Source: Bacteroidales bacterium
GTDB taxonomy: Bacteria > Bacteroidota > Bacteroidia > Bacteroidales > FEN-979
Reading direction: 5' to 3'
DNA: 51,669 nt
Assembly (NCBI GenBank): GCA_016783905.1
Contig: JADHVQ010000001.1
Coordinates: 1 to 51,669, forward strand
Under the pieces are notes generated by a model. It did not search any database, was not told the origin of the DNA, and saw only the letters and a program-made list of their open reading frames with translations. This document shows positions 3,637-35,803 of this stretch, piece by piece; the stretch's first letter is position 1, and each line of letters starts with the position of its first letter. The position numbers were made by a program, and so were the translations under genes.

Positions 3637-3707
3637 TTCCTCTATGCCATGTATTTTGTCTTCTGTATCTAAAAGTTATACCAAAACACTTCACATTTCA
3701 CGTTTCA

Positions 3708-11987: not shown

Positions 11988-11995
11988 TACTTTTG
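11988..11995 (+). promoter_or_regulatory. TACTTTTG -7 element
   Basis: TAnnTTTG upstream of ATG 12020. Confidence 0.5.
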
Positions 11996-12019
11996 CAACC
12001 AATAATTGATGGAATCCCT

Positions 12020-13727: not shown

Positions 13728-14999
13728 ATGAAATTCAAACTGATATATCCCCGGTGGGAAAAGCTGGAAGGGCAAACCATATTCAATCTGCCACCGCATG
13801 GCCCTGTTGTGATGGCAGCAGATATTCCTGAATACGTTGAGATTGATTTTTCCGACGAAAATGTCGAAGATCTGGTCATCGAGGACACGCCTGATTTTGT
13901 AGGCATCTCAATGATGCTAACAACACAGGTCAAGCGGGGTTGGGCCATCGCGGATCAATACAGGAAACTGGGCAAGAAGGTCATCTTTGGCGGTATCTCC
14001 GCGATGCTGCATGCGGAAGAGACGATGGAACATGCTGATGCGGTCTTCTTAGGCGAAGTCGAAGGGAGAATGGCGGATATTTTTGAGGATTTCCGCAAGA
14101 ATGAACTTAAAAAGGTATACAACTTCATGGCCAGGCCACCCGACATGAACCTGGTGGGACCGGCCAATCGCGATATCCTGAACAAAGACCTCTATTATCA
14201 CAAGGGATTCCGGATGGTAGACCTCTTCCACGCTTCACGGGGATGTATTTACGATTGTTATCCTTGTGCTGTAAGGTACCTGGGAGGCCGTGGCTTTCGT
14301 CCGCGTCCGATTGACCGGGTGGTGGAAGAACTCTCCCAGATTGATAACAACCGCCTCTTTATCGTGGATAACTCCCTGGCGTTGGATACCGAATGGGAAA
14401 AGGAGCTATTTAAAGCTATGATTCCGCTGAAAAAGAAGTGGGTCAGCCATACCATCGAAGACAAGGACGAAGTGCTTGATCTGGCTGCCCGGGCAGGAGC
14501 ATGGTACGTTTATCAAGCCGTCTTCGATACCTCCGATTACATCCGCAACCGGATCAAACAGTACCACGATTATGGCATCGCTGTGGAAGGGACCATCCTG
14601 CTGGGACTTGATAATCAGACAGAAGATGACATCAAACGACTGATCGACTTCCTCCTGGAGATCAATCTCGACCTGGCAGAATTTACGGTCCTGGCCCCTT
14701 TCCCGCATACCAAAGCGTATGCCGACCTGGTCAAGCAAAACAGGATTTTTGACCACGACTGGGATCATTACAACGCCGGTAAAGTAGTCTATCATCCAAA
14801 ACACATGTCGGCAGAGAGGTTGCAGGAACTCTACCATTACGCCTGGGATATATTCTACAGGGACGAACCCCAGACCATGAAGATGTTCAACCTGATTACC
14901 CGTGTCATCAACCGGGAGGTTGAAGACGGCACATATGCCCCCCGCCGCCGGGATCTGATTGATGTTAGTTTTGGAAAAGAGGTTGGGAAGATGGCATAA
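13728..14999 (+). CDS. B12-binding domain radical SAM protein
   Basis: Cobalamin-binding-like N-terminus; radical SAM motif HASRGCIYDCYPCAVRYLGGRGFRPR (Cx3Cx2C). Confidence 0.88.
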   Translation: MKFKLIYPRWEKLEGQTIFNLPPHGPVVMAADIPEYVEIDFSDENVEDLVIEDTPDFVGISMMLTTQVKRGWAIADQYRKLGKKVIFGGISAMLHAEETMEHADAVFLGEVEGRMADIFEDFRKNELKKVYNFMARPPDMNLVGPANRDILNKDLYYHKGFRMVDLFHASRGCIYDCYPCAVRYLGGRGFRPRPIDRVVEELSQIDNNRLFIVDNSLALDTEWEKELFKAMIPLKKKWVSHTIEDKDEVLDLAARAGAWYVYQAVFDTSDYIRNRIKQYHDYGIAVEGTILLGLDNQTEDDIKRLIDFLLEINLDLAEFTVLAPFPHTKAYADLVKQNRIFDHDWDHYNAGKVVYHPKHMSAERLQELYHYAWDIFYRDEPQTMKMFNLITRVINREVEDGTYAPRRRDLIDVSFGKEVGKMA

Positions 15000-15461: not shown

Positions 15462-17927
15462 GTGATTCGACAAAAAGCAAATTATATTATTCACAGGATA
15501 AGATCCCGTTTCTCCCTCCCTATCCTATTCCTTATTCTCACCACTCACTTCTCACTTTGCTTCGTCCCCCGAATACTCGGGGTTCTCGCAATGACATTTC
15601 TCGCTTCTTATTCCATTTCCCAGCCTATCCTTCGACAATCCATCAAAGGAGTCGTCCTTGATCAGCAGACCCTCTCCCCTCTTCCGGGAGCTACGATCAT
15701 TCTTATGGGGAGTGATTCGCTGATTGGAGCAGTTTCAGATAACGAAGGAGCTTTCAGACTCGAACAGATCCCTATAGGTAATCACCGGATCCGGGTGACC
15801 TATGTGGGCTATGCACCTTATGAATCGCCTGATATCATTGTAAGTTCCGGTAAGGAGAGCACGATCACGGTCTACCTGCAGGAGATGGTCCTTACTGCCC
15901 GGGAGGTGGAGATCAGAGGGGACTATGAAAAGTACCAGCCCATCAACCGGATGGCGACGGTTAGTGTCAGGAATTTCAGTGTGGATGAGACCTTTCGTTT
16001 TGCAGGGAGTTACAACGATCCTGCCCGAATGGCGCAAAACTTTGCGGGGGTAACCTCCGGAGTAGATAACAGAAACGACATCATCGTTAGGGGGAACAGC
16101 CCGATAGGGCTCCAGTGGAGGCTGGATGATATGGAGATTCCCAATCCCAATCATTTTGCCGCTGTTGGAACTACCGGAGGTCCTGTTACTGTACTGAACA
16201 ACAACCTGTTAACAAACTCTGATTTCTTTACAGGTGCTTTCCCCGCCCAGTATGGGAACACGCTGGCAGGGGTGTTTGACCTTCGTATGCGTTATGGGAA
16301 CAGCGACCGGCGAGAGTACTGGTTTGAAATGGGCTGGAATGGATTGGAGTTCGGGACAGAGGGTCCCTTTTCAAAAAAATCATCAGCTTCCTACCTGTTT
16401 GCCTACCGTTACTCCATGCTGGAACTGATCAGCTTCCTGGGAATCAAGTTAAACCTTGTACCACGTTACCAGGATCTGAACCTGAAGATAACCCTTCCCA
16501 CCAAAAAAGCGGGTACCTTCACCCTGACCGGAATGGGTGGACTCAGTTATATCCAGTTGTTCGATAGCCGGAAATCACAGGATAAGTGGATGTTCCCCGA
16601 TTATGGGGAGGATCTCGCCAATGGTTCTGACCTGGGTGTTCTCGGCCTGACACATCAAATCCTTTTGACCCCAAAAACACGATGGAAGAACATTCTCTAT
16701 GTAGTTGGTTCTCTTGTTTATACCAAGATCGACACCTTTTCAAACGTGATAATTACTCCATCACCTTGGGCCGGAGAACGATCAGAGGAGGTCAAGGGAT
16801 CCTGGTCTTCCCAGCTTTTTCATAAGTTCTCAATCCGAAACAGCCTTGATGCCGGAATCTTTCTTGATTATTACTGGATGTCATTTGCTGATAGCATGAT
16901 GTGGAAAAACTCGTTCCTGGTAAATACCGGGACCAGGGAACAGATGGGATTTCTACGGGCTTTTACCCAGTGGAAACATGCCTTTTCAGACCGTTTCTCA
17001 ATTACATCAGGTGTTTTTGGTTCCTTACTGTCCCTGAACAGCAGCTGGGCGTTGGAACCGCGTATTGGCTTCGACTGGGTCATCAACGATCGTCACAGCC
17101 TGAACTTCGGGACGGGCCTGTACAGCCAGATTCAGCCACGGGTGATCTATTTCTTACTTGCTCAACAGCCTGACGGGACAATAACGCAACCCAATCTGGA
17201 GATGAACTTTACACGCAGTTGGCAGTTGGCAGTTGGCTATAATTATTTGCTGACTGAGAACCTGCGATTTAAGGCAGAGACCTATTATCAGTACCTGTAT
17301 GATATCCCTGTCAAACGATCCATTCCGGAGTATGCTCTTCTGAACCAGGGTCATGAATTTTTCCTTGACAGGCAATACGCTGACAGCCTGATTAATCTGG
17401 GAACCGGTGAAAATTATGGGATTGAGTTTACCTTTGAACGGTTTTTCAAAAAGAACTACTACTATCTCCTCACCGCTTCCTTCTTTAATTCAACCTATAA
17501 AGGATACGACAGGATACAACGAAACAGTGCCTTCAATGTCAACTATGTGTTGAATGCCGTTGGAGGATATGAATTTGTGGTTGGGAAACGGAAATGGGGA
17601 GTGCTCTCATTCGGCCTGCGTGCCACCTGGGCCGGAGGAAATCCATACATCCCTTATGATGTCAGTGCTACCGTCGCAACCGGAGAGCCTATCCCTGATT
17701 GGAGTCGTTCCTATGAATCCCGATATCCTGCATACAAACGAATCTCTTTCCGCTTTGGCATCAAACGAAACATGCCTAAATACAACCTTGAATTCCTGCT
17801 CGACTTGCAATACCGCACCAATTACACCAACATCGCCCTTCAGCGAATCGATCCGAAAACCGGTGAGATACGATACTACTTCCAGATGGGCTTCTTCCCG
17901 ATGGGGACCTGGCGGATCCAGTTTTAA
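15462..17927 (+). CDS. TonB-dependent receptor with CarboxypepD_reg-like N-terminus
   Basis: IKGVVLDQQTLSPLPGATIILMGSDSLIGAVSDNEGAFRLEQIPIGNHRIRVTYVGY; plug-like IIVRGNSPIGLQWRLDDMEIPNPNHF; barrel ending MGTWRIQF. Start uncertain. Confidence 0.88.
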   Translation: MIRQKANYIIHRIRSRFSLPILFLILTTHFSLCFVPRILGVLAMTFLASYSISQPILRQSIKGVVLDQQTLSPLPGATIILMGSDSLIGAVSDNEGAFRLEQIPIGNHRIRVTYVGYAPYESPDIIVSSGKESTITVYLQEMVLTAREVEIRGDYEKYQPINRMATVSVRNFSVDETFRFAGSYNDPARMAQNFAGVTSGVDNRNDIIVRGNSPIGLQWRLDDMEIPNPNHFAAVGTTGGPVTVLNNNLLTNSDFFTGAFPAQYGNTLAGVFDLRMRYGNSDRREYWFEMGWNGLEFGTEGPFSKKSSASYLFAYRYSMLELISFLGIKLNLVPRYQDLNLKITLPTKKAGTFTLTGMGGLSYIQLFDSRKSQDKWMFPDYGEDLANGSDLGVLGLTHQILLTPKTRWKNILYVVGSLVYTKIDTFSNVIITPSPWAGERSEEVKGSWSSQLFHKFSIRNSLDAGIFLDYYWMSFADSMMWKNSFLVNTGTREQMGFLRAFTQWKHAFSDRFSITSGVFGSLLSLNSSWALEPRIGFDWVINDRHSLNFGTGLYSQIQPRVIYFLLAQQPDGTITQPNLEMNFTRSWQLAVGYNYLLTENLRFKAETYYQYLYDIPVKRSIPEYALLNQGHEFFLDRQYADSLINLGTGENYGIEFTFERFFKKNYYYLLTASFFNSTYKGYDRIQRNSAFNVNYVLNAVGGYEFVVGKRKWGVLSFGLRATWAGGNPYIPYDVSATVATGEPIPDWSRSYESRYPAYKRISFRFGIKRNMPKYNLEFLLDLQYRTNYTNIALQRIDPKTGEIRYYFQMGFFPMGTWRIQF
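15509..15602. repeat. Heptamer array plus palindromic GTCATTGCGAG-type repeat inside the 5' end of the TonB receptor gene
   Basis: ctcacca ctcactt ctcactt, then ccccga-atac-tcgggg; reverse complement reads GTCATTGCGAGAACCCCGAGTATTCGGGGGACGAAGCAA. Confidence 0.65.
17215..17237. repeat. Heptamer run (GCAGTTG)x3 inside the TonB receptor CDS
   Basis: gcagttggcagttggcagttggc. Confidence 0.7.
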
Positions 17928-17937
17928 AAAAAATATG

Positions 17938-19084
17938 AACTACAATAAAAGCCTGGCAGCACTTACCCAGTCGAAGGCTCTCTTCTACCCCAATATCGGA
18001 TTCAACGCCAGGTACAGTGTTGCGGATGGGGGAAGAACCATTGATTTTCCTGTCGGGGATTTACTCAATCCGGTCTATACCACACTGAACCAACTCACTC
18101 AATCACAAAAGTTTACACAAGTAGAGAATGAACAGATCTACTTTATACGACCCACGGAGCAAGAAACCATGCTTTCTCTGCATAAACCCCTCTTCAACAG
18201 CGATATCTGGTTCCAATACAAAATCCGTAAAGATCTATCAGAAGCTGCATTCATTGGCATTGATCTGTACAAACGGGAACTGGTGAAAGAGATCAAAACG
18301 GCCTATTTCAATTACCTGAAGACAGTCAAAGCACTGGAACTGTTCCAACAAACACTTGAGGTGGTGAAAGAGAACCTGCGCGTCAGTGAAAGCCTCGTTG
18401 CCAACGACAAGGTCACAGTAGATGCTGTGTACCGTTCCCGGGCCGAACTCAGTAAAGTAGAACGGCAGATGGCAGAAGCAGAAAAATTTCACGAATCAGC
18501 AAAAGCATATTTCAATTTTCTGTTGAATAAGCCGCTTGAATCCAATATTGAAGTAATATTTAATAATGTATTGATAGATAGTTTATTATTAACACCTCAG
18601 GTTAACCAAATTCAACCATACCCCTACCCTGAACCTGGGAGTGAGCTATGGCATCCAGGGTGAAACGTATGAGTTCAGTGACAAGGCAGATTTTTTGATC
18701 GCTTCGGTCGTGATGCAATGGAAGATATTCCATGGGATGGAAACACGTTCTAAAATCCAACAAGCATCCATTGAGCAAGATATCTTGCAAGAGCAGCATG
18801 ACGAACTGCAGAACCAGATCTCTATGCAGGTGATTGATGCCTGGTATGGTGTGAAAGCGGCTGCCAAAGCAGTTCTTGCAGCGAGAACACAAAGTCTTAG
18901 TACCGCAAAAGCTTTTGAGATCATTCGAAAAAAATACAACCAGGGACAAACCAGTCTGCTCGAATTCATCAACGTAAGGAGCGATATGACCAACGCCGAC
19001 CTAAACCTGATCCTGGCAAGTTATGATTATGAGATCAGCCGGGCCGAGCTGGAGCGGGTAGTGGGGACGTGCCCCGTAGAGTAA
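17938..19084 (+). pseudogene. TolC-family outer membrane factor, N-terminally truncated, internally deleted and frameshifted
   Basis: Frame 1 (NYNKSLAALTQSKALFYPNIGFNARYSVADGGRTIDFPVGDLLNPVYTTLNQ...) breaks after ~18600; frame 2 resumes PTLNLGVSYGIQGETYEFSDKADFL.... No signal peptide. Confidence 0.85.
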
Positions 19085-19118
19085 TTACGAATTACGATTT
19101 ACGAATTACGATTTACGA
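19084..19118. repeat. Heptamer array (ATTACGA/TTTACGA)x5
   Basis: attacga attacga tttacga attacga tttacga; first base is the last base of the TAA stop. Confidence 0.92.
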
Positions 19119-19177
19119 TTTATATTTTCCATATGATTGTATGACCTATTTTCCTAATTTCCTAATTTCCTGATAAT

Positions 19178-19914
19178 ATGAGACATAAACGTTTATTTTA
19201 CCTGCTTTTAGCCCTTTCTCTCCTGGCCTGCAACAGAACACCGAAAGGAGCAGACAAAGATGACCGGATTCGTGTTGCAGTTATACCGGCAGAGACCAAA
19301 GAGATCAGGGAAACTGTCCATACATCAGGGCAGCTCTCCTCTAAAACGGAGGTCAGACTTAGTTTTAAGACAGGAGGTGTGATCGAACAGATTGGGGTGA
19401 AAGAGGGCCAGTCGGTTTCCAGGGGGGATATCATAGCCCGGTTGAACCTGGCTGAAGTCAATGCCATCGAGCACCAGGCTGAATTGGGTTTCCAGAAAGC
19501 AGAGAGGGATTATCAACGGGTTGAAAACCTATATAACGACAGTGTGGCTACACTCGAGAACCTGCAGGATGCAAGGACAGCCCTCCAGGTTGCAAAAGCC
19601 AACCTGGAGATCGCCCGGTTCAATAGGAAATATTCGGTAATAGAGGCTCCAGCCCGTGGAAAAATCCTCCTGAAGCTGGCTGAAGAACACGAAATTGTCG
19701 GACAAGGTCAACCGGTATTTCTCTTTGGCTCCTCCGAAGAGGAGTGGGTCGTGAAGGCGAGTCTGACCGACAGGGATGTTGTAAAGATTGACCTTGGAGA
19801 TCCTGCTATGGTTCAATTTGTGTTACAGAAGGGCTCAGGGAGGGAGAGATGGTTGTGACAGAAGGGGCTCATTATCTGAAAGATAACGATGAGATTCTGA
19901 TCAAAGAAGAGTAA
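19178..19914 (+). pseudogene. RND efflux periplasmic adaptor (HlyD family) with internal deletion and frameshift
   Basis: Lipoprotein signal LLLALSLLACN; HlyD core; ...DRDVVKIDLGDPAMVQF, then another frame gives VTEGLREGEMVVTEGAHYLKDNDEILIKEE*. Confidence 0.85.
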
Positions 19915-19930
19915 CCTCAATCTGTCAGCC

Positions 19931-22895
19931 ATGAAGCTTCCGAAACTAGCCATCGACAATTATCAGTTCACCATCCTGGTATTTATTTTACTTGTCATAG
20001 CGGGAATCAGCTCCTTTCTCTCCATGCCCCGGACAGAGGATCCGCCGGTGAATGTTCCAGGAGCCTCTGTGATTGTGATTTTTCCCGGAGCCACACCAGT
20101 CGACCTGGAAGAACTTGTGGCTCAGCCTATTGAAGATGCAATCAATGAACTCGGGGATATCAAACGCATCCAGACAACCATCAAAGACGGACTGGTATAT
20201 CTCTCCGTGGAATTTTACTTCGGAATGGATGCCAGGAAGAAGTATGACGAGGTAGTGGATAAAGTCAATGGTATCAGGGGTGAACTTCCAGCGGAGATCC
20301 TGGAGTTGAACTTTCTCGAATGGACCACTTCCGACGTGGTTATCATGCAGTTAGCCCTGGTTTCGGAGAGTGCTCCGTTCCGTGAACTTTTCAAGGAGGC
20401 AGAGCGACTGAAAAAGATGATCCAACAATCCAAGGGCGTGAAGAGTGTTGGGATCAAGGCATATCCTGATGAGGAGGTTAGAATCTCCCTCAACTTTCCC
20501 AAAATGGCGGCCATGAACATTTCGCTTGATCAGGTTGAAAAAGCTATCCTGAGTAATAATGCGAACATCCCGGGCGGCTCACTGAAACTTTCGGGGAAGA
20601 ACTTCAACATTCAAACGAGCGGATCATATAGCAGTCTCCCTGAGATTGAAAATACGGTAGTTCACTCATTCCGGGGGTGGAACATCTATCTGAAAGACAT
20701 CGCCGATGTTGTATTCACATATGAAGATCAGATCTATTATGCCAGGGTGAATGGAAAACGCTGTATCTTCCTGGAAGTAAAGCAGAAAGAAGGCTACAAT
20801 ATCTTCAGGATACGGGAAGATCTACAGACGGAGATCATGGATTTCACGGATGCACTTCCGGCCGGCATCTCCCTCTTTCCTGTCTTCGATCAATCCATTT
20901 GGGTAGAACAACGGATCAACCACTTCCTGGGGAACCTGTTGCAGGGAATCCTGCTGGTTGGACTGATTGTCCTGCTGGCCATGGGCTTTCGCTCATCGAT
21001 GATCGTGATCCTGGCCATACCACTCTCCATCATCATGGGGCTTTTTATGGTTGATCTATCGGGATTTGGCCTCCAGCAGATCTCAATCGCCGGACTGGTG
21101 GTGGCACTGGGATTGCTGGTCGACAACTCCATCGTCATGGTGGAGAACATCAACCGGTTCAGGTTTCTCGGGTACTCCCCCCGTGAGGCTTCTATTCAGG
21201 GGGCCTCAGAGATTGGATGGCCAATCATCAGTGCGACTGCCACCACGGTGCTTGCCTTTATTCCCATCATCATGATGCCTGAGGCATCAGGAGAGTTCAT
21301 CAAGAGCATGCCTGTGACCATCATTGCGACTCTAACCATGTCGCTGTTGGTGGCGCTTGCACTTACACCGCTGGTAACCAGTAAAATATATCATCCGATT
21401 TCCGTCAATGCCACGAAAAAGAGGTTGAAATTCTTTGAGAACCGATTGCAAAAGCTGATTGAAGGCCCATACCGCCGCTCGCTCCATTATGCACTGAACC
21501 ATAAAGTGTTGGCAATCGGTTTTGCTGTTGCGGCCCTGATAATCTCCCTGTTTGTTTTTCAATACGTAGGGATCTCTTTCTTTCCCAAAGCGGAAAAACC
21601 TCAGTTTCTGATCCAGATCAACCTGCCGGAAGGGACAAACCTCGATAAAACCAACCTGGTAACGATGGATGTGGAGGCGATGCTGGATACGCTATCAGGG
21701 ATTTCCTATTACGCCTCCAACATTGGTCACGGCAATCCCAGGATCTACTACAATGTATTCGAGAAAAACTATGCAAAAAATTTCGCTGAGATCTTTGTTC
21801 AGTTAAAGGAATATAATGCCAGAGAGTTTGATGAGCTGATGGTCCAACTTCGTCATCAGTTTTCGGAATATCCCGGAGCCAGGATCAATGTCAAGGAGTT
21901 TGAACAAGGTCATCCGATCGAAGCGCCGGTGATGGTTAATGTTACCGGTGAGAACCTGGATATCCTCAAGGAGATCTCAGAAGATGTGGAGAGAATGATC
22001 AGTGAACAACCAGGAATCATCAATCTCGACAACCGGATGTCGAAGAAACGGATCGATCTCAGTGTCAACATCAACAAGATAAGGCAAGTATTTACGGAGT
22101 TCCTGTCGTTGAGATCGATAAAACCATCAGGACGGCCGTCAATGGTCTGGCCGTCTCAAAATTCCGTGATCCACAAGGGAAAGAGTACCAGATTATTCTG
22201 CGAATGCCAGTTGGAGAAGAGATAATCCCAGAAGATTTTGGTCACATCTTCGTCAGGTCTCTTTCGGGACGCCTGGTACCCCTCAAACAACTGGCTACCA
22301 TCGAGTTTATTCAGGCCCCCAGTACCATACAGCGATTTGATCTCAACCGGTCAGCCCTGATCACCGCCGATCTCGAGAAAGGAGCAAATCTTGATCAGGT
22401 CTTGAAACCTGTCATGGAACAATTGTCAAACTATCCCTTCCCAAAAGGATATGGATACGTGATCACCGGGGAATTGGAGAGCCGGGAGAAGATTCTTTCG
22501 GCGGAATGCAGGTGGCCATCATCATCGCCATGATCTGGGCATTGCTGATCTCAGGGTATACCTTTTCATTCTCAGCATTCGTTGGATTAATCAGCCTTGT
22601 CGGCATCGTTGTAAACAATGCCATCATCCTGGTGGATTATACAAACAAGCTGATTACCAGGGGAATGACTCTCAAAGAGGCCATTATCAGGGCGGGAGAG
22701 ACGCGCTTTACCCCTATTGTCCTGACCAGCCTGACTACCATTGGGGGATTGCTCCCACTTACATTGAGAGGCGGAACGATGTGGGCGCCGCTGGGCTGGA
22801 CCATCATCGGAGGACTCTTCGTCTCCACCTTCCTGTCGCTGATCATCGTACCGGTGTTGTATCAGGTTTTTACGAAGGACGAAAGACGAAACTAG
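19931..22895 (+). pseudogene. RND family efflux permease split over three frames
   Basis: 19931-~22080 in frame, then ASIYGVPVVEIDKTIRTAVNGLAVSKFRD in a second frame, then FGGMQVAIIIAMIWALLISGYTFSFSAFVGLISLVGIVVNNAIILVDYTN in a third. Confidence 0.88.
22872..22892. repeat. Heptamer array (ACGAAGG/ACGAAAG/ACGAAAC)
   Basis: acgaagg acgaaag acgaaac, abutting CTAG, where the stops of both convergent genes overlap. Confidence 0.85.
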
Positions 22896-24844
22896 TAATA
22901 AAACCAAATCGTCCGGTAATCCCGCACATTCTCCCCTCTTGCGGCAAGCTCCTCGAGGTAGTCATAGATGGGAACATCCACGTAATTGTAAGGTGGGACC
23001 GGGGAGATGTTTTTCTCCCACGGATGAAACTCATAAACCCGGCTTCCGTCGGGAAGGATCATAACCAACCGGTGATCCTGTCCTGCCCGTAAATGGTTCT
23101 TTCCAAGTTTAGGAACATTGAAGACCGGTTCATCGGTGCGGTCGAGTCCGGGTAACAGGCGCGCCTCCTCTTTCCGCTCCTGTAAGATCCTGGCAATCGG
23201 GACCATGTAACGTTTGGTCTCCTCCTTCCCTTTCATGTTGAACGTATAATAGGGATCTACCCCAATGGATTTAAGGTCGCAACGAAGTTTTGCCAGCTCA
23301 AACCGGCGGGAGTTCTCCACCGTATAGACCTGTTGATTGTAGATGCTGATCCCCAGTTTCCGGATCCTCTGCACGGCAGCCATAGCTTCGGGAGTGATCT
23401 CGTAAGAGTGCTCGAAATGGGTGATCAACGCAATCTCCAGGCGTGGAGGCTGATGATACCTACGCAGGATCTCGACGAGCTTATCCGTGAATCGCATGGG
23501 CAGCACGACAGGCGTACGGCTCCCGATCCTGATCCTGTAAATTTGCTTCTTCCTAGATAGGATCTCCAGAATATTCTCAATCTGCGGGTTGGTCATCACC
23601 AGGGGATCTCCTCCGGTAATCAACACATCTCCAACACTTTTATGTTTATCAAACCACGAAAGAGCCTCTTCCAGCTTCTCTTTGGTAGCCATGGCCTTGG
23701 GCTCCAGCACCCGTTCAATCTCCCAGTTACGCTGGCAATAGACGCAGATTTGCGAACAGGTGTTAAACGGCTTCAGGATGGAGATGAAAGGGTATCGGCG
23801 GGTAACCAGGTCGACCGGGGAGGTATCGTGCTCTCCCATAAAATCAAACGATATTTCCCGGTCAGCCTTGTGGTCAGTAAGCTCATCCACATAATCCTTG
23901 GGGGGAATCACCTGGGCCCTGATCGCATGATCATACCCGATAGAGAGTTTGGTATCCATCAAACTCAGATAATAGGGAGTGATACCAAAGGCAATCTTGT
24001 TCCTGACCGCCTTGTCTACCGCCTCCTTCTGATCATTGGTCAGCTCGATCAGGTCGATCAGTGGTTTGGGATCCTTGATCACATGCTTCAGATGCCACTG
24101 GTAATCGTTCCAATCCTTTTCCGTTGCCTTGAAATAGCGAAGCATCTTCGCACGGTTCTCTGCACGCCACCCGACGACCTCTTCCTCCAGTCCGGATGGA
24201 TACTTTTTAAAGTACTTCTTCATATTGGATCCCAGTTCATCCAGTATCTCCATCCTGACAGTCGCTGCTTCTCTTCCGTGCAGTTTAAAAAACTCGGGAA
24301 CGCCCTTCTTTACCTGGTCGTTCTCCAGGTAGATATTGGATTTGCCGGTGACGCCCCGAAAAAGGTTAATAAACTCCATCAGGAATCCGGCAGAGATCTT
24401 ACCGGTCATCTCATCCCTGTGATTCCCGGCAAGTTTCCAGAGGCAATCCAGGGCCGAAAACTCGGTTCGAAATTCATTTACAGGCCCAATGACACTCCTG
24501 AATACCCGAATGCTCTCCCGAACCGTGGATTTCTCCAGGATATGCAGGTCATTGTCCACCTGGAAGACTTTTCTCTCAGCCATTTCCAGGTAGTTGTAAA
24601 GATGATCGCGAGCCTCTTCAAGGGTCTCCGATTTACGTAATAACTCAAAGATGTCCGGATTCGAGTCCCATAACCGCTGCAAATAGCCTTCATAATCAAC
24701 CTCAAAGTGAGGTTTGAACAGGCTCACCTCATCGGTGAAAACATCATCCAGCAAGCGGGTACTAACCCATTTTCGGCCGGAAGAACTCTCTTTACCTGTT
24801 TTGGGATGGATTTCTGGCAAATGATTGGAAGTATCTTTCTTCAT
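22892..24844 (-). CDS. KamA-family (lysine 2,3-aminomutase-like) radical SAM protein
   Basis: CSQICVYCQRNWE (Cx3Cx2C), ALSWFDKHKSVGDVLITGGDPLVM, RIGSRTPVVLPMRFT. Start taken at MKKDTSNHLPEI. Confidence 0.9.
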   Translation of the reverse strand: MKKDTSNHLPEIHPKTGKESSSGRKWVSTRLLDDVFTDEVSLFKPHFEVDYEGYLQRLWDSNPDIFELLRKSETLEEARDHLYNYLEMAERKVFQVDNDLHILEKSTVRESIRVFRSVIGPVNEFRTEFSALDCLWKLAGNHRDEMTGKISAGFLMEFINLFRGVTGKSNIYLENDQVKKGVPEFFKLHGREAATVRMEILDELGSNMKKYFKKYPSGLEEEVVGWRAENRAKMLRYFKATEKDWNDYQWHLKHVIKDPKPLIDLIELTNDQKEAVDKAVRNKIAFGITPYYLSLMDTKLSIGYDHAIRAQVIPPKDYVDELTDHKADREISFDFMGEHDTSPVDLVTRRYPFISILKPFNTCSQICVYCQRNWEIERVLEPKAMATKEKLEEALSWFDKHKSVGDVLITGGDPLVMTNPQIENILEILSRKKQIYRIRIGSRTPVVLPMRFTDKLVEILRRYHQPPRLEIALITHFEHSYEITPEAMAAVQRIRKLGISIYNQQVYTVENSRRFELAKLRCDLKSIGVDPYYTFNMKGKEETKRYMVPIARILQERKEEARLLPGLDRTDEPVFNVPKLGKNHLRAGQDHRLVMILPDGSRVYEFHPWEKNISPVPPYNYVDVPIYDYLEELAARGENVRDYRTIWFYY

Positions 24845-24933
24845 AAAGGGTTCGTTTATAGTGAATGAAAAAATTAATTTTCTAAGAAAAAGCCTGGCAG
24901 AAGATAGTTCGGGATTGGAAGGTTCATCAAACT

Positions 24934-24941
24934 CAAAAGTA
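24934..24941 (-). promoter_or_regulatory. TACTTTTG -7 element (minus strand) for the KamA-family gene
   Basis: CAAAAGTA on plus, upstream of the 24844 start. Confidence 0.5.
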
Positions 24942-24971
24942 CAAAATTTTGGATAAGAACGCAAGTGTTGT

Positions 24972-28518: not shown

Positions 28519-28602
28519 CAGTTGGCAGTGGGCAGTGGGCAGTGGGCAGTTGGCAATGTCAAAATTCGTAAATCGTAATTCGTAATTCGTAATTATTATT
28601 GA
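28519..28602. repeat. Two abutting heptamer arrays in continuous 7-nt phase (CAGTGGG then GTAATTC), ~12 units
   Basis: cagttgg cagtggg cagtggg cagtggg cagttgg caatgtc | aaaattc gtaaatc gtaattc gtaattc gtaatta ttattga; begins on the nucleotide after the TAA stop. Confidence 0.92.
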
Positions 28603-28607
28603 AGTAT

Positions 28608-28615
28608 TACCTTTG
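28608..28615 (+). promoter_or_regulatory. TACCTTTG -7 element at the head of the 7-gene operon
   Basis: TAnnTTTG 19 nt before ATG 28635. Confidence 0.5.
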
Positions 28616-28634
28616 CCCCAAAGATTCAGCCCGC

Positions 28635-29519
28635 ATGCGTCTCTCGTTACGTCTGATGATCTGGTTCCTGACGATCATGCCTTTCCGGTTCTTTTACGGG
28701 ATATCTTCGTTTATTTTCTTCATCATGTTTTACGTTCTGGGTTACCGGAAAAAGGTCGTTTGCAGAAACCTGCAGAATGCCTTCCCGGAAAAGCCGGAAT
28801 CTGAACTCAGGTATATCAAACGAGAGTTTTATAAACACCTGGCTGATTACCTGGTGGAGACAGTAGCAAATTTCCATATGAATGTCAGCGATTTCGACGC
28901 CCGGTACAAGTTAACCAATACAGAACTACTGGATAAATATGCCAGGGAAGGGATCAACGTCATTCTGACTCCAGGCCATTATGGAAACTGGGAGTGGGTC
29001 TCATACCTGGTGCTGAAGATTAATTTCACCTGCGTGGCCATTTACAAAGAGCAATCCAATAAATTTGTCGATGACCTGATCCTTCATTCCAGGGGCAAAT
29101 ACGGACTCCTTCTTTACCAGTATCATGAAGCATACAAATACTTGCTCAACGCCCGGGAAACAGCCCCGCTCTGCCTCTATTTTGCGGCCGATCAGCGCCC
29201 GGTAAAAAAAACGAAGGTTCCCTGGGTGACCTTTTTAAACCAACCGACTGCTGCTTTTCGTGGTCTGGAAAACCTGCACCGAAAGACGAAAGGGGTGGTT
29301 CTTTATGTGCATATCAGGAAAGTAAAGCGCGGCTTTTATGAAGTGGAATTCCGTCCCCTGAACAAGCCCGGTGAGGTGGACATGGTTCCGGATCTCATCG
29401 AACGGTATTTTGAGGCACTGGAGAGTAACATCCGGGAAGACCCCCGGTTTTATCTCTGGTCGCATAACAGGTGGAAATTTTCGCCGCCAGCTGAAGCGAC
29501 AATCAATCATGAAAAATAA
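28635..29519 (+). CDS. LpxL/HtrB-like lysophospholipid acyltransferase
   Basis: NVILTPGHYGNWEW (HX4-like motif), CLYFAADQRP, PWVTFLNQPTAAFRGLENLHRKTKGVVLYVHI; N-terminal TM helix. Confidence 0.85.
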   Translation: MRLSLRLMIWFLTIMPFRFFYGISSFIFFIMFYVLGYRKKVVCRNLQNAFPEKPESELRYIKREFYKHLADYLVETVANFHMNVSDFDARYKLTNTELLDKYAREGINVILTPGHYGNWEWVSYLVLKINFTCVAIYKEQSNKFVDDLILHSRGKYGLLLYQYHEAYKYLLNARETAPLCLYFAADQRPVKKTKVPWVTFLNQPTAAFRGLENLHRKTKGVVLYVHIRKVKRGFYEVEFRPLNKPGEVDMVPDLIERYFEALESNIREDPRFYLWSHNRWKFSPPAEATINHEK

Positions 29520-30612
29520 ATCGTCTTTGCCCTCTTTACCTCCTCGATGGATTGTCAGAGCCATCCAGGGTGTCAGGTCAGCAATCCTGGCTATGCATGA
29601 CAGGATGTTTCCCGGGAATGTGGTACTATATGAGAAATTCCAGTATTTCTACCTGCTTCCATGCCTCTATGTGACAGCAGAACTTAATGTTGCGGGGTTG
29701 CTTCAGGATGGGGAAAAACCGCTGGCTGATCTTGCCAGGAAGTCTGGTACTGATGCGGAAAGCCTCTATCGAATCCTGCGTGTTCTGGCTTCCCATGGCA
29801 TATTCCGTGAGAGCAGAGACCGGTTTTTTTCCAATACCAGGTTATCAAAACCGCTCATGGACAAACAGGAATCATTGCGCCATATGCTCAGGCATCATCT
29901 GGGTCCACTGAACTGGCAAATCACCGGTGACCTGCTGGAGACAGTCAAAACCGGAAAAGATGGATTCAACAGGAAATATGGCAAAAATATTTATGACTAC
30001 CTTACCGGAGATCCCGACAGTTATGCCATATTTGATCAGTCGATGTCGGATCTCTCTTCCTTGGGAATGGCTCCTCTGCTTCAGTCATACAACTTCTCGA
30101 ACATCACAACCCTGGCAGATGTTGGAGGTGGAGAGGGGTTTCTGTTAGCCAACATCCTGCAGCGATACCCTTCCATCCAGGGAATCTGGTTTGACCTTCC
30201 CGTTGCCCTTGAAAAAGCAGAACAGGTACTTCAAGAATACGGTGTGAGAGAGAGGGTGTCCCTGATTGAAGGGAATTTTTTGGAATCCGTTCCTTCCGGA
30301 GCCGATGGATACCTGGTGAAAAATATTTTACACAACTGGGACGATTCAAACTGCATTACCCTCCTCTCCAATATCCGGAAGGTGTTGCCTGAGAATGGGA
30401 AAGTCATCATCGTGGAGATGATCGTTCCTCCAGGGAACAGGCCGTCGGCAGCCAAGATGATCGACATTCAGATGCTCACTTCTATGCCTGGTGGCAAAGA
30501 GCGAACCCGGGAGGAATTTGAAGCGTTGTTCCGTCAGGCTGGTCTCACCCTTTTCCGGGAATATCCCACCATTGCACCGGTCTCTGTTCTCGAAGCCCGA
30601 CGGAATGGTTAA
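29509..30612 (+). CDS. SAM-dependent O-methyltransferase (Methyltransf_2/hydroxyindole-type)
   Basis: ADVGGGEGFLLANILQRYPSIQGIWFDLPVALEKAE; YLVKNILHNWDDSNCITLLSNIRKVLPENGKVIIVEMIVP. Start overlaps the upstream CDS by 11 nt. Confidence 0.87.
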   Translation: MKNKSSLPSLPPRWIVRAIQGVRSAILAMHDRMFPGNVVLYEKFQYFYLLPCLYVTAELNVAGLLQDGEKPLADLARKSGTDAESLYRILRVLASHGIFRESRDRFFSNTRLSKPLMDKQESLRHMLRHHLGPLNWQITGDLLETVKTGKDGFNRKYGKNIYDYLTGDPDSYAIFDQSMSDLSSLGMAPLLQSYNFSNITTLADVGGGEGFLLANILQRYPSIQGIWFDLPVALEKAEQVLQEYGVRERVSLIEGNFLESVPSGADGYLVKNILHNWDDSNCITLLSNIRKVLPENGKVIIVEMIVPPGNRPSAAKMIDIQMLTSMPGGKERTREEFEALFRQAGLTLFREYPTIAPVSVLEARRNG

Positions 30613-31789
30613 CTTTACCCCCATGCGAAAAATCCTGGCAGCATTAAAGAAAGAGTGGCTTATCCTGATCCGGGATATCCCCGGCCTTGGAATTCTGTTC
30701 CTGATGCCTGTCCTCTTGATTCTTGTGGTGACCCTGGCACAGGAGAATGCATTGAAGAGCCAGGTGGAAAAGAGCACCATCCTCATTTACAGTCCTTCCG
30801 GGTCAATCCTCGGAAAACAAATAACCATCGATATTGAATCTTCAGGCATGTTTAGAATAGCTGCTGATCCCAAAGGCCGGGATAAGCTCTATGAAGCCGT
30901 CCAAACAGGACAGGTCCCGCTTGGAATCCTGATTGCTCCAGGGGATACAGCCATCACACTGATCATCGATCCCACCCTGCACGAAGCCTATAAAACCTCC
31001 CTGGTCACAGCTGTTACATTCATCCTTAAGGGGGCGGGGGGAAAGGTGATGATGCAACAACTATTATCAGCCAGTAAGCCTTCTGCTGCTGTACTTTCCA
31101 TGGAAGCTATCCTGGCAAATCTACCACAGATATCCCTTCATCAGGCAGTGAAAGAGCGATCCTCCATCACCCCGACACCGGTGCAGAACAACATCCCTGG
31201 GTTTATTCTTTTTGCTATGTTCTTCATCGTCATTCCGTTATCCGGTAGCGTGATCAGTGAAAAGAACGAAGGGGCCAGTTTCCGGTTACGTACACTTCCC
31301 GTTCCCCTCTGGACTATGCTGGGAGCCAAAGTCCTGTTGTACCTGCTGGTATGTATCGTGCAGTTCCTGCTGATGTTGCTGATCGGGTACTACATGCTTC
31401 ACCTTTTATTCGGATTCCCGAAGCTGGAGATGGGATCCAGTTTTCTTGCATTGACAATAGCCACCCTTACTGCCGCCCTCGGAGCTGTCGGATTCGGACT
31501 GCTGGTTGGTTCAGGCTCACGCACCCACAGCCAGGCAGCCCTGTTCGGGTCTGTCATGGTCGTCATTCTGGGCATTATCAGCGGGACGTTCCTCCCGATC
31601 CATGTCATGCCTAAAGCGATCCGTGTCATCAGCAATTTCTCGCCTATCCGTTGGGGAATCGACAACTACCTTGAACTATTCATCCGTGACGGAACCGTGA
31701 TGGATATCCTGCCCAGAGCCCTCTGGTTGTTTTTGTTTTTTATCTTTGCAATGCTGATGAGCATGTTAATTTTTAAAAAACGGAACTAA
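30605..31789 (+). CDS. ABC-2 type transporter permease
   Basis: MRKILAALKKEWLILIRDIPGLGILFLMPVLLILVVTLAQ; 6-TM profile; IISGTFLPIHVMPKAIRVISNFSPIRWGIDNYLELF. Confidence 0.85.
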   Translation: MVNFTPMRKILAALKKEWLILIRDIPGLGILFLMPVLLILVVTLAQENALKSQVEKSTILIYSPSGSILGKQITIDIESSGMFRIAADPKGRDKLYEAVQTGQVPLGILIAPGDTAITLIIDPTLHEAYKTSLVTAVTFILKGAGGKVMMQQLLSASKPSAAVLSMEAILANLPQISLHQAVKERSSITPTPVQNNIPGFILFAMFFIVIPLSGSVISEKNEGASFRLRTLPVPLWTMLGAKVLLYLLVCIVQFLLMLLIGYYMLHLLFGFPKLEMGSSFLALTIATLTAALGAVGFGLLVGSGSRTHSQAALFGSVMVVILGIISGTFLPIHVMPKAIRVISNFSPIRWGIDNYLELFIRDGTVMDILPRALWLFLFFIFAMLMSMLIFKKRN

Positions 31790-31802
31790 TGCCGCGGAGG
31801 TT

Positions 31803-32222
31803 ATGAAAGAGAAAGAGGGCTTTGTCGATTGCCCGGAGCAGCAGATGATCCTGTATGTGGAGAAAGAAGACGGGCAGTTTGGGCCCATGCAGACCGGCTC
31901 ATACATTACGAAAAATTACATCAACGATTATTTCACAAAACGGAATAACCTGGTTCACTCTCTCCGGGAACAAATCAGCCGGCGAGAGATCAGCCCCGTG
32001 AAGTTATTTATGGTACTGGAGGATCTGACTACCAAAGAACTATCGGCCCGGACCCGCATTCCTTCACGGAAAATCAAAAAACATATACTCCCTGTTCACT
32101 TTGAACAGCTCTCAGAAGATTTACTCCACCGGTATGCCGCCGTCTTTAACGTCACAGTGGAACAACTGTTAAAGGCAGATCCCGGCACAGAACCGCTGCA
32201 TGATGAATCTCCCAAACGATGA
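31803..32222 (+). CDS. Hypothetical 139-aa protein with HTH-like C-terminus
   Basis: LTTKELSARTRIPSRKIKKHILPVHFEQLSEDLLHRYAAVFNVTVEQLLK resembles an XRE-like helix-turn-helix. Confidence 0.6.
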   Translation: MKEKEGFVDCPEQQMILYVEKEDGQFGPMQTGSYITKNYINDYFTKRNNLVHSLREQISRREISPVKLFMVLEDLTTKELSARTRIPSRKIKKHILPVHFEQLSEDLLHRYAAVFNVTVEQLLKADPGTEPLHDESPKR

Positions 32223-33226
32223 CTACGATCCCCTTCAACCATAACATGGGCGCCCACTGTGAATCGGGTACCATCACCTCCCTCCTGAATCATGCCGGGC
32301 TCACGATCTCTGAACCCATGGTATTCGGCATCGCCAGCGGGATCTTTTTCGGCTATTTTCACCAGCATAAATCATTTACGTTTCCTACGTTTATCGTCAG
32401 GAACCGTCCGGGCGACATGCGGAAGAACATCCAGAAACGACTGGGGGTAAAGTTTCAGACCTTCTCATTCAAACAAGAGCAGGAGGGGATTGAGAAGCTG
32501 GATGGACTCCTGATGCAGGGGATTCCCGTCGCTTCACAGGTCGATTTTTACTACATGGATTACGTTCCGAGTTGGGAACGGGCTCATGTCAATGTCCATT
32601 TTATGGTGGTGATCGGGAAAGAGGATTCGGAATTTATCATCAGTGACAGCTATTTCCCGAAACCGGTAAGACTGAAAGAGGAGTCGCTTCGGAGAGGCAG
32701 GTTTGCAGGAGGAAACATGTCTCCAAAAGGATTTCTTTTCTATCCGCAATATGTGCCTGCGGAGGTGGATCTGCAGAAGCCAATACTGAAAGGGATCCAG
32801 AAAGCCTGTTTCAATATGCTTCACCTACCGGTTCCATTCATCGGCATCAAAGGAATCCGGCTTTTCGCCAAACGGGTGGTTGACTGGCCGAAGCTGGCCA
32901 GGGATACCGAACATCTATCTCACGAAGTGATGAAAATCAACATCCTGCTGGAAGACCAGGGTACAGGAGGTGCCGGTTTCAGGTTTATGTATGCTACCTT
33001 TCTCCAGCAAGCAGCTGAAATCGTCAACAAGCCTGAGTTGAAGGAACTTTCTTCGGAACTGATGACCATTGGCGACGGATGGAGAGAGATATCGCTTTTT
33101 GCGGCAAGGATAGGCAAAAACCGGGATCTGGGTCCTGCCAAAATGGCAGAGCTTAGCGAGCTGATCATGGACCGTGCGGCAGTGGAAGAGAGATTCTTTA
33201 AACAACTGAAAAAGAGTATTAAATAG
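32219..33226 (+). CDS. BtrH N-terminal domain protein (BtrH_N/DUF4872-like)
   Basis: NHNMGAHCESGTITSLLNHAGLTISEPMVFGIASGIFFGYF...RPGDMRKNIQKRLGVKF...AHVNVHFMVVIGKEDSEFIISDSYF. Confidence 0.8.
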   Translation: MTTIPFNHNMGAHCESGTITSLLNHAGLTISEPMVFGIASGIFFGYFHQHKSFTFPTFIVRNRPGDMRKNIQKRLGVKFQTFSFKQEQEGIEKLDGLLMQGIPVASQVDFYYMDYVPSWERAHVNVHFMVVIGKEDSEFIISDSYFPKPVRLKEESLRRGRFAGGNMSPKGFLFYPQYVPAEVDLQKPILKGIQKACFNMLHLPVPFIGIKGIRLFAKRVVDWPKLARDTEHLSHEVMKINILLEDQGTGGAGFRFMYATFLQQAAEIVNKPELKELSSELMTIGDGWREISLFAARIGKNRDLGPAKMAELSELIMDRAAVEERFFKQLKKSIK

Positions 33227-33235
33227 GAGATTATA

Positions 33236-33517
33236 ATGGGTATTGAACCGAATGATGAGCTGAAACTGGAGATCAAAAACCTGATCATGTTAACCCTCAA
33301 CATAACCGATGTAGATCCCACAGAGGTGGATGATGACGAACCTCTTTTTGGCAGCAAGAACGCTCTGACCCTTGATTCTGTGGACGGCATCGAGATCATT
33401 ATGGCCCTGCAGAGGAAATATAACGTCCGGATCAATGATCAGAACCTTGCCCGTCACATCATTCAATCAATTAACAGCATAGCGGAATTTATCACAAGGG
33501 AAAAGACAACTTCTTGA
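33236..33517 (+). CDS. Acyl carrier protein
   Basis: 93 aa; phosphopantetheine site LTLDSVDGIEIIMALQRKYNVRI. Confidence 0.85.
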   Translation: MGIEPNDELKLEIKNLIMLTLNITDVDPTEVDDDEPLFGSKNALTLDSVDGIEIIMALQRKYNVRINDQNLARHIIQSINSIAEFITREKTTS

Positions 33518-34602
33518 AAGATTCTTACCTCACCGCAGGCATGCGTTTCAGGCCTCTCATACGCCTGCTCTCCCGAAATCACATTGCCTGGACACCTCAG
33601 CATAGTGCCCGGATCCTTTTTTTACTCCAGAGTTCCTGCTGGTCTTCCCTGTTTTCAAGAATAGAGACGATGAGGTTTGGATCCTCCCTTCAAAACACGC
33701 CGGTTCCCCGTGATCCGATCTTCATTGTAGGTCACTGGCGAACAGGCTCTACCCTGCTGCACCAGTTGATGGCACAGGATCCGGAACTGACGGCACCTAC
33801 CCTCTTTCAGGTTGCATTACCGGAAAACTTCCTCGTCTCCTATCACTTTTATAAACCCATTCTTTCGTCTCTGGTGGGCTCTTCCCGACCTATGGACAAC
33901 GTAAAGATCGGCATGGACGAACCCCAGGAAGATGAGTATGCCATCTTCAGGCTAACCACCAGATCTCCCCTTGAACAGCTCATCTTTCCCGCAAAAAAAG
34001 AGTACTTCCTTAACAAGACCTCCTTTCTCCCTGCCGGAAAATCCTTGCTCCAATGGGAATCCAGATTGAAACATTTTTACAGGAAAATATATGTTGCTAC
34101 AGGCAAACGTATCGTTTCCAAAAATCCCTTTAATTCCTTGCGGATCCCGTTGCTGGCCAAACTTTTTCCGGAAGCCAGGTTCATTCATATCGTCAGACAT
34201 CCTTTTGCTGTGGTTCCTTCAACCCAACATCTCTGGAGGGTGGTGCAAAAGCAAAACATCCTTAACCGGAATGGCTACATACCTGATGCAAAAGAGATCG
34301 CCGAATTCCTTTTGCACATGACGGATACCATCCAGGATGATTTCACTCAACTTCCTGGGGAGCGTTCCGCGGAGATCCGGTATGAAGATCTTGTGCAGAA
34401 TCCAGTCGCAAGTTTGCAATCCCTTTACCAGCACCTGAAGATGTCCTACTCAGGTGAGTTTGAAAGTCTTCTGACTCAATATATTAGCTCTTTGGCTGGT
34501 TACCGGAAAAATGTATACTCCCTGTCGGATGTGGAAAAGAACCTGATTGCAGCAATTATGAATACACAGTTGGAACGGTACGGTTATATCGAAAAAGTGT
34601 AA
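33514..34602 (+). CDS. Sulfotransferase family protein
   Basis: PAPS loop-like DPIFIVGHWRTGSTLLHQLMAQDPEL; FIHIVRHPFAVVPSTQHLWRVV; RYEDLVQNPVASLQ. Confidence 0.87.
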   Translation: MKDSYLTAGMRFRPLIRLLSRNHIAWTPQHSARILFLLQSSCWSSLFSRIETMRFGSSLQNTPVPRDPIFIVGHWRTGSTLLHQLMAQDPELTAPTLFQVALPENFLVSYHFYKPILSSLVGSSRPMDNVKIGMDEPQEDEYAIFRLTTRSPLEQLIFPAKKEYFLNKTSFLPAGKSLLQWESRLKHFYRKIYVATGKRIVSKNPFNSLRIPLLAKLFPEARFIHIVRHPFAVVPSTQHLWRVVQKQNILNRNGYIPDAKEIAEFLLHMTDTIQDDFTQLPGERSAEIRYEDLVQNPVASLQSLYQHLKMSYSGEFESLLTQYISSLAGYRKNVYSLSDVEKNLIAAIMNTQLERYGYIEKV

Positions 34603-34633: not shown

Positions 34634-35329
34634 ATGAACCGACATATATTTTTCTTCACTGTCCTTTTGCTATTATCCAGTGGGATTGGGCTCTCTCAAA
34701 CAACGGGAGAGACACAGGGCAGTTCGTCATCTGGCAGCTTTTCTAAACCAAATCTGATCCGGAGTGGTTCCTACCTGAAACTGGGGCCAGTAATTCCTAT
34801 GGGCCTCTTTGCCACTGATCAGATCATCATTGACCGACCCCCGCACGATTATGATACTACCAATTTTTTTACTGCCAAAATTGGTGGAAATCTTGGACTG
34901 GGATACCTGATTTACATCGGACCGGGGGTAGCTGACAACTACCTTAGATTCGGTATTGACGCCTGCTTTCTTGATGGGTGGTTTGTGACCTCTAATCCCA
35001 CCCTTCCGGCTACTACCACTAAAAAGGAAACGGATTTCTGGTATTACTTTGTTGGACAGAAATTTGGTCCTCTGATCACCGTTAATCCTGTTGACAGGCT
35101 GATGATTGACCTGAGCTACAAACTGAATTTCAACCTCAGCTGGCACAACAGTGATTTTGGATACAACATCATCGGCCAGGAGGTGATGATGAATATCCGG
35201 TACCGTATCATCCTGGTGGCGTTCCAGTATAACTTTGGAACCATGAACTATAACGATTTTGATAAATCACGCCCGGTTCACGATATTGATATCTCTTCAT
35301 TCCGGGTGTTGCTTGGTTTTAAATTCTAA
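34634..35329 (+). CDS. Outer membrane beta-barrel-like protein, unknown function
   Basis: 231-aa ORF with signal peptide, aromatic/alternating pattern, ends VLLGFKF. Confidence 0.65.
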   Translation: MNRHIFFFTVLLLLSSGIGLSQTTGETQGSSSSGSFSKPNLIRSGSYLKLGPVIPMGLFATDQIIIDRPPHDYDTTNFFTAKIGGNLGLGYLIYIGPGVADNYLRFGIDACFLDGWFVTSNPTLPATTTKKETDFWYYFVGQKFGPLITVNPVDRLMIDLSYKLNFNLSWHNSDFGYNIIGQEVMMNIRYRIILVAFQYNFGTMNYNDFDKSRPVHDIDISSFRVLLGFKF

Positions 35330-35400
35330 CATAAGGTCTGCAGATAATTAAATTTGGAAAATATTTTCCGGTGTTATAATTTTGTCTAAATAAATCAAAC

Positions 35401-35715
35401 AAGTTTAACCTAACAAAGGACGCGTATGAAACAAAGCGTGTTGCGGACATGAATAAAAAGGAAGCGGGAAGTGGAGATACCTGGGCGAAGGCATGGGTAA
35501 ATGACCGCTCTGCCAGATTTCATCCGATGTTTGAAAAGAACTTTAACGGCAATGCGGATAAATGTGGCCTTTCAGGCAAAGAAGGCGCTGATGATGCAAC
35601 TTACACCCTCATCATTAAAACCGTATTTACCGAACCCGGATTTAATGTAGGAGTTACGAGAAAAAATGCGTACATAAACATGGTGGTTGATCTCGTCGAA
35701 ACTGCAAATCCATAG
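35401..35715 (+). pseudogene. N-terminally truncated remnant (KFNLTKDAYETKRVADMNKKEAGSGDTWAKAW...NAYINMVVDLVETANP)
   Basis: Protein-like frame continues upstream of the called Met without a start or signal peptide. Confidence 0.5.
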
Positions 35716-35741
35716 AAAAGTAACCTTTAGACTACCAGGAT

Positions 35742-35780
35742 AAAAAAGCCCGGATGGCACACTGCCTACTGGGCTTTTTT
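35742..35780. terminator. Bidirectional intrinsic terminator
   Basis: aaaaaagccc...ggca-cac-tgcc...gggctttttt between convergent genes. Confidence 0.85.
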
Positions 35781-35803
35781 CATTCGTCATTCGTCATTCG
35801 TTA
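35781..35803. repeat. Heptamer array (CATTCGT)x3
   Basis: cattcgtcattcgtcattcgtta; supplies the TGA stop of the minus-strand gene at 35794-35796. Confidence 0.9.

Follow-up and report, generated by a model that had tools for sequence, protein, structure and literature searches.

Here we have analysed by computation an operon of seven genes, located between positions 28608 and 34602 of a 51,669-nucleotide stretch (the window) of contig JADHVQ010000001.1 in the draft genome GCA_016783905.1, which encode an acyltransferase, an O-methyltransferase, an ABC-2 (ATP-binding cassette) permease, a DarG-like protein, the BtrH-like protein DarH2, an acyl carrier protein (ACP) and a sulfotransferase. Our results show that this operon forms the distal end of a large gene cluster of the flexirubin (aryl-polyene) pigment type in uncultured lake Bacteroidales. 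Flexirubins are chemotaxonomic pigments of Bacteroidota. An earlier note, made from the letters of the window alone, had seen no named pathway in these genes and had held a match to a characterised one, such as aryl polyene or flexirubin, to be incompatible with its proposal; such a match is what we find. The cluster is a variant of the flexirubin type and not a plain member, since it differs from the characterised clusters.

The operon as the distal end of a flexirubin-type cluster

In relatives of the source organism, the operon ends one contiguous cluster of 50–70 kb comprising FlxA, FlxB, pairs of ketosynthase and chain-length factor, ACPs, LolA2/LolB2, DarG/DarH, an ABC ATPase and FlxY, and in four of these genomes (G008, G012, G030 and G031) the whole cluster is found on a single contig with the same gene order. 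Their tail reads O-methyltransferase–ABC–DarG–DarH–ACP–sulfotransferase–OMPb–FlxY, and the right flank (Wn_35794, Wn_37559 and MutL) is common to the window and all four. FlxY lies directly 3΄ of the operon in most relatives. For both starter genes a relative's protein scores above the family cut-off (FlxA 835 bits against 700, FlxY 708 against 520).

In the source genome the rest of the cluster is present on contigs C117 and C114. The former bears a second DarH (404.6 bits, cut-off 300) within a type II polyketide synthase (PKS) cluster, together with FlxB (390 bits, cut-off 340), several ketosynthases and chain-length-factor-like partners, ACPs, DarG (107 bits against the family-model cut-off of 70, 111 against the flexirubin equivalog cut-off of 170), an ABC ATPase and permease, LolA2 (220, cut-off 125) and LolB2 (76, cut-off 60). 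C114 is the middle part, with a FabF-like ketosynthase, an ACP, a malonyltransferase, two B12-radical S-adenosylmethionine (SAM) proteins, a glycosyltransferase and a 1,295-aa MMPL/acyltransferase/methyltransferase protein. Thus, while no ketosynthase is seen in the window, as the earlier note had stated, ketosynthases are encoded on both of these contigs. A protein of ~1,290 aa uniting MMPL-type exporter, 1-acylglycerol-phosphate acyltransferase-like and methyltransferase-like domains is seen in loci L137 (29–3916, minus strand) and L078 (9252–13103).

Four further cluster genes, all on the plus strand, lie inside the window at 8.9–17.9 kb. They code for a CrtD/CrtI-like FAD oxidoreductase (8935–10554; TIGR02733, 132 bits, below cut-off) and a C45 (AAT-type) autoproteolytic acyltransferase/hydrolase (11993–13714; NF040521, 219 bits, cut-off 85), both with counterparts in canonical flexirubin loci (35–37% and 43–47%, respectively), for a B12-binding radical SAM protein that is among the best conserved of the locus (13728–14999; 75–88%), and for a CarboxypepD_reg-domain protein (15462–17927), whose gene is separated here from the operon by ~10 kb of unrelated genes.

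Conservation of the neighbourhood, a point that had been left to comparison, extends far beyond a single strain. Window-type DarH (at least 65% identity) is found in 35 of the 37 family genomes, the source genome included and some copies being partial at contig ends, with G017 and G023 lacking it; it is missing from all 24 genomes that represent other families of this order. In a more distant second lineage (L033/L034), FlxA–FlxB–…–DarGH is divergent from and adjoins DarG–DarH–ACP–sulfotransferase, which in L033 is followed by a B12-radical SAM gene. The O-methyltransferase and the permease are conserved throughout the family, the DarG-like gene is immediately 5΄ of DarH in every locus of sufficient length, and the ACP gene is adjacent to DarH2 wherever enough sequence is available. 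Outside pigment clusters, stand-alone DarH-like proteins with ~26–28% identity to the window DarH occur in L120 (10444–11424), L123 (9933–10910), L128 (385–1371) and L129 (6315–7322), and are apparently a separate BtrH subfamily.

Departures from the canonical clusters

The canonical flexirubin loci used for comparison (G288, G268, G272, G160, G455 and G332) have DarA and DarB together with a DarH. DarA and DarB make the dialkylresorcinol half of flexirubin. DarA, the resorcinol aromatase, is present in 6/6 of the canonical genomes and in none of the 29 family genomes tested, and the DarB-like ketosynthase III of the family is distant (84–89 bits, cut-off 550). Added in the family is a second, phylogenetically distinct DarG–DarH–ACP set with an O-methyltransferase and an ABC permease. 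Window-type DarH forms its own clade in the tree (99/99 support), apart from the canonical and C117-type DarH proteins (97/92), although the root is uncertain because the outgroup branch is long. No sulfotransferase was found in the six canonical loci compared. The second acyltransferase set and the sulfotransferase suggest a decorated variant pigment lipid, of which we found no description; the literature searched yielded no paper treating flexirubin together with a sulfotransferase, or BtrH together with aryl polyene.

With the flexirubin (flx/dar) clusters of Flavobacterium and Chitinophaga (PMC3992019) the family cluster shares FlxA (in most relatives), FlxB, the ketosynthase/chain-length factor pairs, ACPs, an LpxL-type acyltransferase, the DarG–DarH–ATPase–permease block, a thioesterase, a polysaccharide deacetylase, LolA2/LolB2, a glycosyltransferase, an MMPL exporter, the CrtD-like and C45 proteins and FlxY. 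Unlike them, it has no DarA and only a distant DarB-like protein, and it carries in addition an extra ketosynthase/chain-length factor pair, FabF/ACP/malonyltransferase genes, enoyl-CoA hydratases, several B12-radical SAM enzymes and the second DarG–DarH–ACP set with its O-methyltransferase, permease and sulfotransferase. Similarly, the xanthomonadin-dialkylresorcinol (arcuflavin) cluster of Azoarcus sp. BH72 has a dar block with a BtrH-like protein (darE), an ABC ATPase, an ABC permease, an ACP and a ketosynthase, but in this cluster DarA and DarB are present, and no sulfotransferase was seen in the part of its gene table covered here (PMC3949708).

FlxA and FlxY are present in most of the family and were not found in four genomes of genus g1 (G000, G002, G004 and G005), which otherwise keep an intact cluster. 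In the source genome FlxY gave no match, and the best FlxA match (324 bits, cut-off 700) is on contig C25, off the cluster. The positions expected for FlxA (5΄ of FlxB; C117 15414–16170, L003) and for FlxY (window 35329–35794) are within contigs and hold other sequence, so that the loss is not merely an assembly gap at those sites, though with an assembly that is 89% complete copies could lie elsewhere in the missing 11%. The absence of both genes suggests a changed polyene starter, and some members of the genus may begin with a different unit or obtain coumarate from another source.

Proposed chemistry and alternative explanations

DarH2 (32219–33226, plus strand) combines the BtrH_N and DUF4872 domains and exceeds the cut-off of NF053550 (329.4 bits against 300), the NCBIfam model for DarH, a protein of flexirubin and dialkylresorcinol clusters. 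Its predicted structure (predicted local distance difference test score, pLDDT, 90) found in Foldseek as best folds AziU3, CtaG and CcbD (E from 1e-10 to 6e-7), whereas a fold search against a viral library gave no match. An alignment of 24 sequences shows no variation at C14 and H127 and almost none at D143; this putative triad agrees in its spacing along the sequence with that of CtaG, whose variants C11A, H128A and D144N are named in PDB titles. CcbD works by a ping-pong mechanism via a Cys thioester, the acyl group being supplied by a carrier protein (PMC12945683); for CtaG, transfer of hydroxybenzoate from the carrier protein CtaH has been predicted (PMC6772006). We consider that DarH2, which shares with BtrH, CtaG and CcbD the BtrH_N domain, the fold, the Cys-His-acid residues and a carrier-protein partner, is a putative carrier-protein acyltransferase of this fold, though it belongs to another pathway, has 12–15% identity to them and carries a C-terminal DUF4872. 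Given this likeness to CtaG and CcbD and the ever-adjacent ACP, the acyl group would most likely pass from the ACP to Cys14 and then to the acceptor; the latter is probably not a dialkylresorcinol, since DarA is missing. The proposal of the earlier note that the BtrH-like protein transfers an acyl group from an ACP is thus supported by the fold, the triad and the neighbouring ACP. The parallel with butirosin BtrH drawn there holds as a distant kinship in mechanism and extends no further: butirosin-like aminoglycoside acylation was rejected, as no aminosugar genes were seen and fold and domain alone are in common.

The sulfotransferase (33514–34602, plus strand; Sulfotransfer_3, Pfam 115.7 bits), of the type using 3΄-phosphoadenosine-5΄-phosphosulfate (PAPS), conserves GHWRTG and RHP..VvPS, its 5΄- and 3΄-phosphosulfate motifs, and its nearest solved relative is the CurM sulfotransferase (4gbm; E 5e-8). 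It is present in 21 of the 28 testable loci and cleanly absent, with the rest kept, from L013, L017, L019, L025, L026, L032 and L037. Because of these clean losses, sulfate fits better as a late optional decoration than as an obligatory leaving-group step. Both an adenosine 5΄-phosphosulfate (APS) kinase, for PAPS supply, and a phosphopantetheinyl transferase are encoded in the source genome.

We propose, with a probability of about 0.72, that the operon serves for tailoring and transfer, as the distal module of a flexirubin-type aryl-polyene cluster present in one Bacteroidales family and in a second, distant lineage. Cluster membership, the added DarG–DarH–ACP set, the absence of DarA and the fold and triad of DarH2 are results of the comparisons above, and from them we infer the remaining chemistry as follows. 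The type II PKS machinery of C117 and C114 would build a polyene acyl chain, and this chain or a second acyl unit would be loaded onto the ACP encoded at 33236. DarH2 would take the acyl group onto Cys14 and pass it on to an acceptor, a hydroxyl or an amine, standing in for the dialkylresorcinol found in true flexirubins. The O-methyltransferase may methylate a phenolic or other hydroxyl, and sulfation by the sulfotransferase may follow as a late decoration that is optional. Transport to the outer membrane would fall to the window permease, probably with the C117 ABC ATPase, and to the LolA2/LolB2/MMPL proteins. Methylation, sulfation and export had been foreseen in the earlier note and appear reasonable, while a glycolipid, one of the two kinds of product that it named, has no specific support.

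Several points weigh against this proposal. The source genome is a draft and 89% complete, and the window, C117 and C114 are linked solely by synteny in relatives. The source species has neither FlxA nor FlxY, hence the polyene starter is in doubt. The pairing of the window permease with the C117 ATPase is probable at best, and the product, substrates, acceptor and activities are read here from genes.

Could the sulfate be a leaving group instead? The sulfotransferase domains of CurM and Ols act on an ACP-bound β-hydroxyacyl chain, and a similar reaction here, in which sulfate would be lost by elimination, for instance to give a terminal alkene, rather than stay as a lasting decoration, would suit the adjoining ACP and sulfotransferase genes, which overlap by 4 nt, and the nearest solved structures, which include the sulfotransferases of CurM and of a polyketide synthase (4gox). 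We regard it as unlikely, since the structural matches are weak (E from 5e-8 to 2e-6) and another is the uncharacterised protein 2z6v, no decarboxylating thioesterase was recognised beside the sulfotransferase, and an obligatory step would forbid its loss from seven loci in which DarG, DarH and the ACP stay. Less credible still is a joint role of DarH2 and the sulfotransferase in closing a ring with sulfate as the group displaced, which has been proposed for AziU3/U2 of azinomycin, a pair implicated in aziridine formation by such a displacement (PMC12559475). AziU3 does give DarH2 its best structural match (E 1e-10), along with a weak match by profile (E 5e-4), but DarH2 retains the Cys-His-Asp residues of the acyltransferases CtaG and CcbD, no AziU2 partner was identified, and the canonical clusters hold a DarH with no sulfotransferase found there. 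Both leaving-group models are disfavoured by the repeated clean loss of the sulfotransferase and by the existence of DarH without one nearby.

In this assembly ~10 kb separate the operon from the nearest gene of the cluster, and the ketosynthases are on other contigs, as would be expected of a free-standing pathway to an acylated, sulfated glycolipid. This explanation is very improbable, because the operon and the cluster form one contiguous unit in four relatives, the operon adjoins the cluster core in the second lineage, lies directly before FlxY in most relatives and has no sugar-specific enzyme; we reject a stand-alone glycolipid pathway on its contiguity with flx/dar genes in relatives, which largely refutes it. 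It is also improbable, though a little less so, that the operon is a decaying remnant, disappearing in the source species after the loss of the starter genes. The lack of FlxA and FlxY in the four genomes of genus g1, and the other sequence at the syntenic positions of the source genome, would accord with decay, but the operon genes are intact and have low dN (nonsynonymous divergence) relative to dS (synonymous divergence) against congeners L008 and L011, which likewise have neither gene.

The B12-radical SAM enzymes of the cluster recall the putative ladderane/polyunsaturated-hydrocarbon clusters of anammox bacteria and Desulfotalea, with which the family cluster shares TIGR04072-type B12-radical SAM proteins, a CrtI-like oxidoreductase and many FabF paralogues; it differs from them in carrying flexirubin-specific genes, and ladderane rings are without support (PMC2649909). 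A congener protein (G003) exceeds the TIGR04072 cut-off (411 bits against 360) and is 80% identical to the C117 copy of the source genome, while a second protein, from C114, stays below it (308 bits). As a speculative and rather doubtful extension, the pathway may be a hybrid in which flexirubin-type machinery for polyenes, lacking the dialkylresorcinol part, is combined with B12-radical SAM enzymes of ladderane type and a second carrier-protein acyltransferase module. Its products would then be membrane lipids of a new class in lake Bacteroidales, polyene or carbocyclic, methylated and sulfated. For the joining of the two flexirubin halves, one study put forward a proposal that involves FlxW, which is ligase-like (PMC3992019). 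A DarH family that persists without DarA, with its own ACP and CtaG/CcbD-type residues, makes this joining step directly testable, and a DarA-less, sulfotransferase-bearing version rich in B12-radical SAM enzymes would be a sign of new chemistry in pigments or lipids.

Architecture of the operon and other features of the window

The seven open reading frames (ORFs) are intact, co-directional and tightly packed as first described, adjoining genes overlapping by 4–11 nt or lying 9–13 nt apart. Compared with congener L008 they show dN of 0.06–0.18 and dS of ~0.9–1.3, that is, purifying selection, and are thus not chance ORFs. The single promoter box noted before, TACCTTTG (28608–28615, plus strand), is a −7 box of the Bacteroidota type; it lies ~20 nt 5΄ of the acyltransferase ATG in the window and in L008, L010, L011 and L012 despite diverging flanks, and no clear −33 element was seen upstream of it. 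The acyltransferase probably starts at ATG 28635 rather than at TTG 28599, since the latter would place the conserved box within the gene. Short tandem motifs (GGGCAGT, CGTAATT) occupy 28521–28597, immediately 5΄ of the promoter, with like stretches in L008, L010 and L011.

Pfam agrees with the earlier domain assignments except for one gene. The LpxL/HtrB-type membrane acyltransferase (28635–29519; PF03279 Lip_A_acyltrans, 107.7 bits) is a genus-specific addition, found only in the genus g1 loci L008, L010, L011 and L012. In three relatives an LpxL-type acyltransferase and a B12-radical SAM protein share one ORF of ~760–777 aa (G012:C11:369247-371577, G031:C5:5698-8031 and G008:C23:181011-183290), a fusion or an overlapping-frame artefact; they are separate genes in the source genome and in G030. 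The SAM-dependent small-molecule O-methyltransferase (29509–30612; Methyltransf_2 and Dimerisation, 178 bits) is kept in family f1 loci at 45–77% identity. The ABC-2 permease (30605–31789; ABC2_membrane_3, 95 bits) has no ATPase gene beside it and is a paralogue of the C117 cluster permease; the relatives' copies also match C_ABC, at ~33%. The protein encoded at 31803–32222, taken before for helix-turn-helix (HTH)-like, matches no HTH family and is instead DarG-related, below cut-off (NF053536, 58.1 bits against 70; NF053545, 62.1 against 170). The ACP (33236–33517; PF00550 PP-binding, 28.3 bits) has an LTLDSVD phosphopantetheine site, of which LDSvD is kept across 32 aligned homologues. To the seven genes must be added an eighth, overlooked previously, 31 nt 3΄ of the sulfotransferase, co-directional and syntenic in many f1 loci (34634–35329, 231 aa); it codes for a putative secreted or outer-membrane protein and had no match in Pfam or NCBIfam. 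All these genes are on the plus strand.

Between the two cluster parts of the window, at 17554–22895, a TolC/RND-type efflux operon identified by eye is seemingly split into overlapping ORFs in different frames, which may reflect decay or sequencing errors. It is followed at 22892–24964 (minus strand) by a putative radical SAM protein of lysine 2,3-aminomutase type, judged by its sequence. At the contig end, two tandem paralogues of ~1,170 aa (109–7223, minus strand) are by position unrelated to the cluster.

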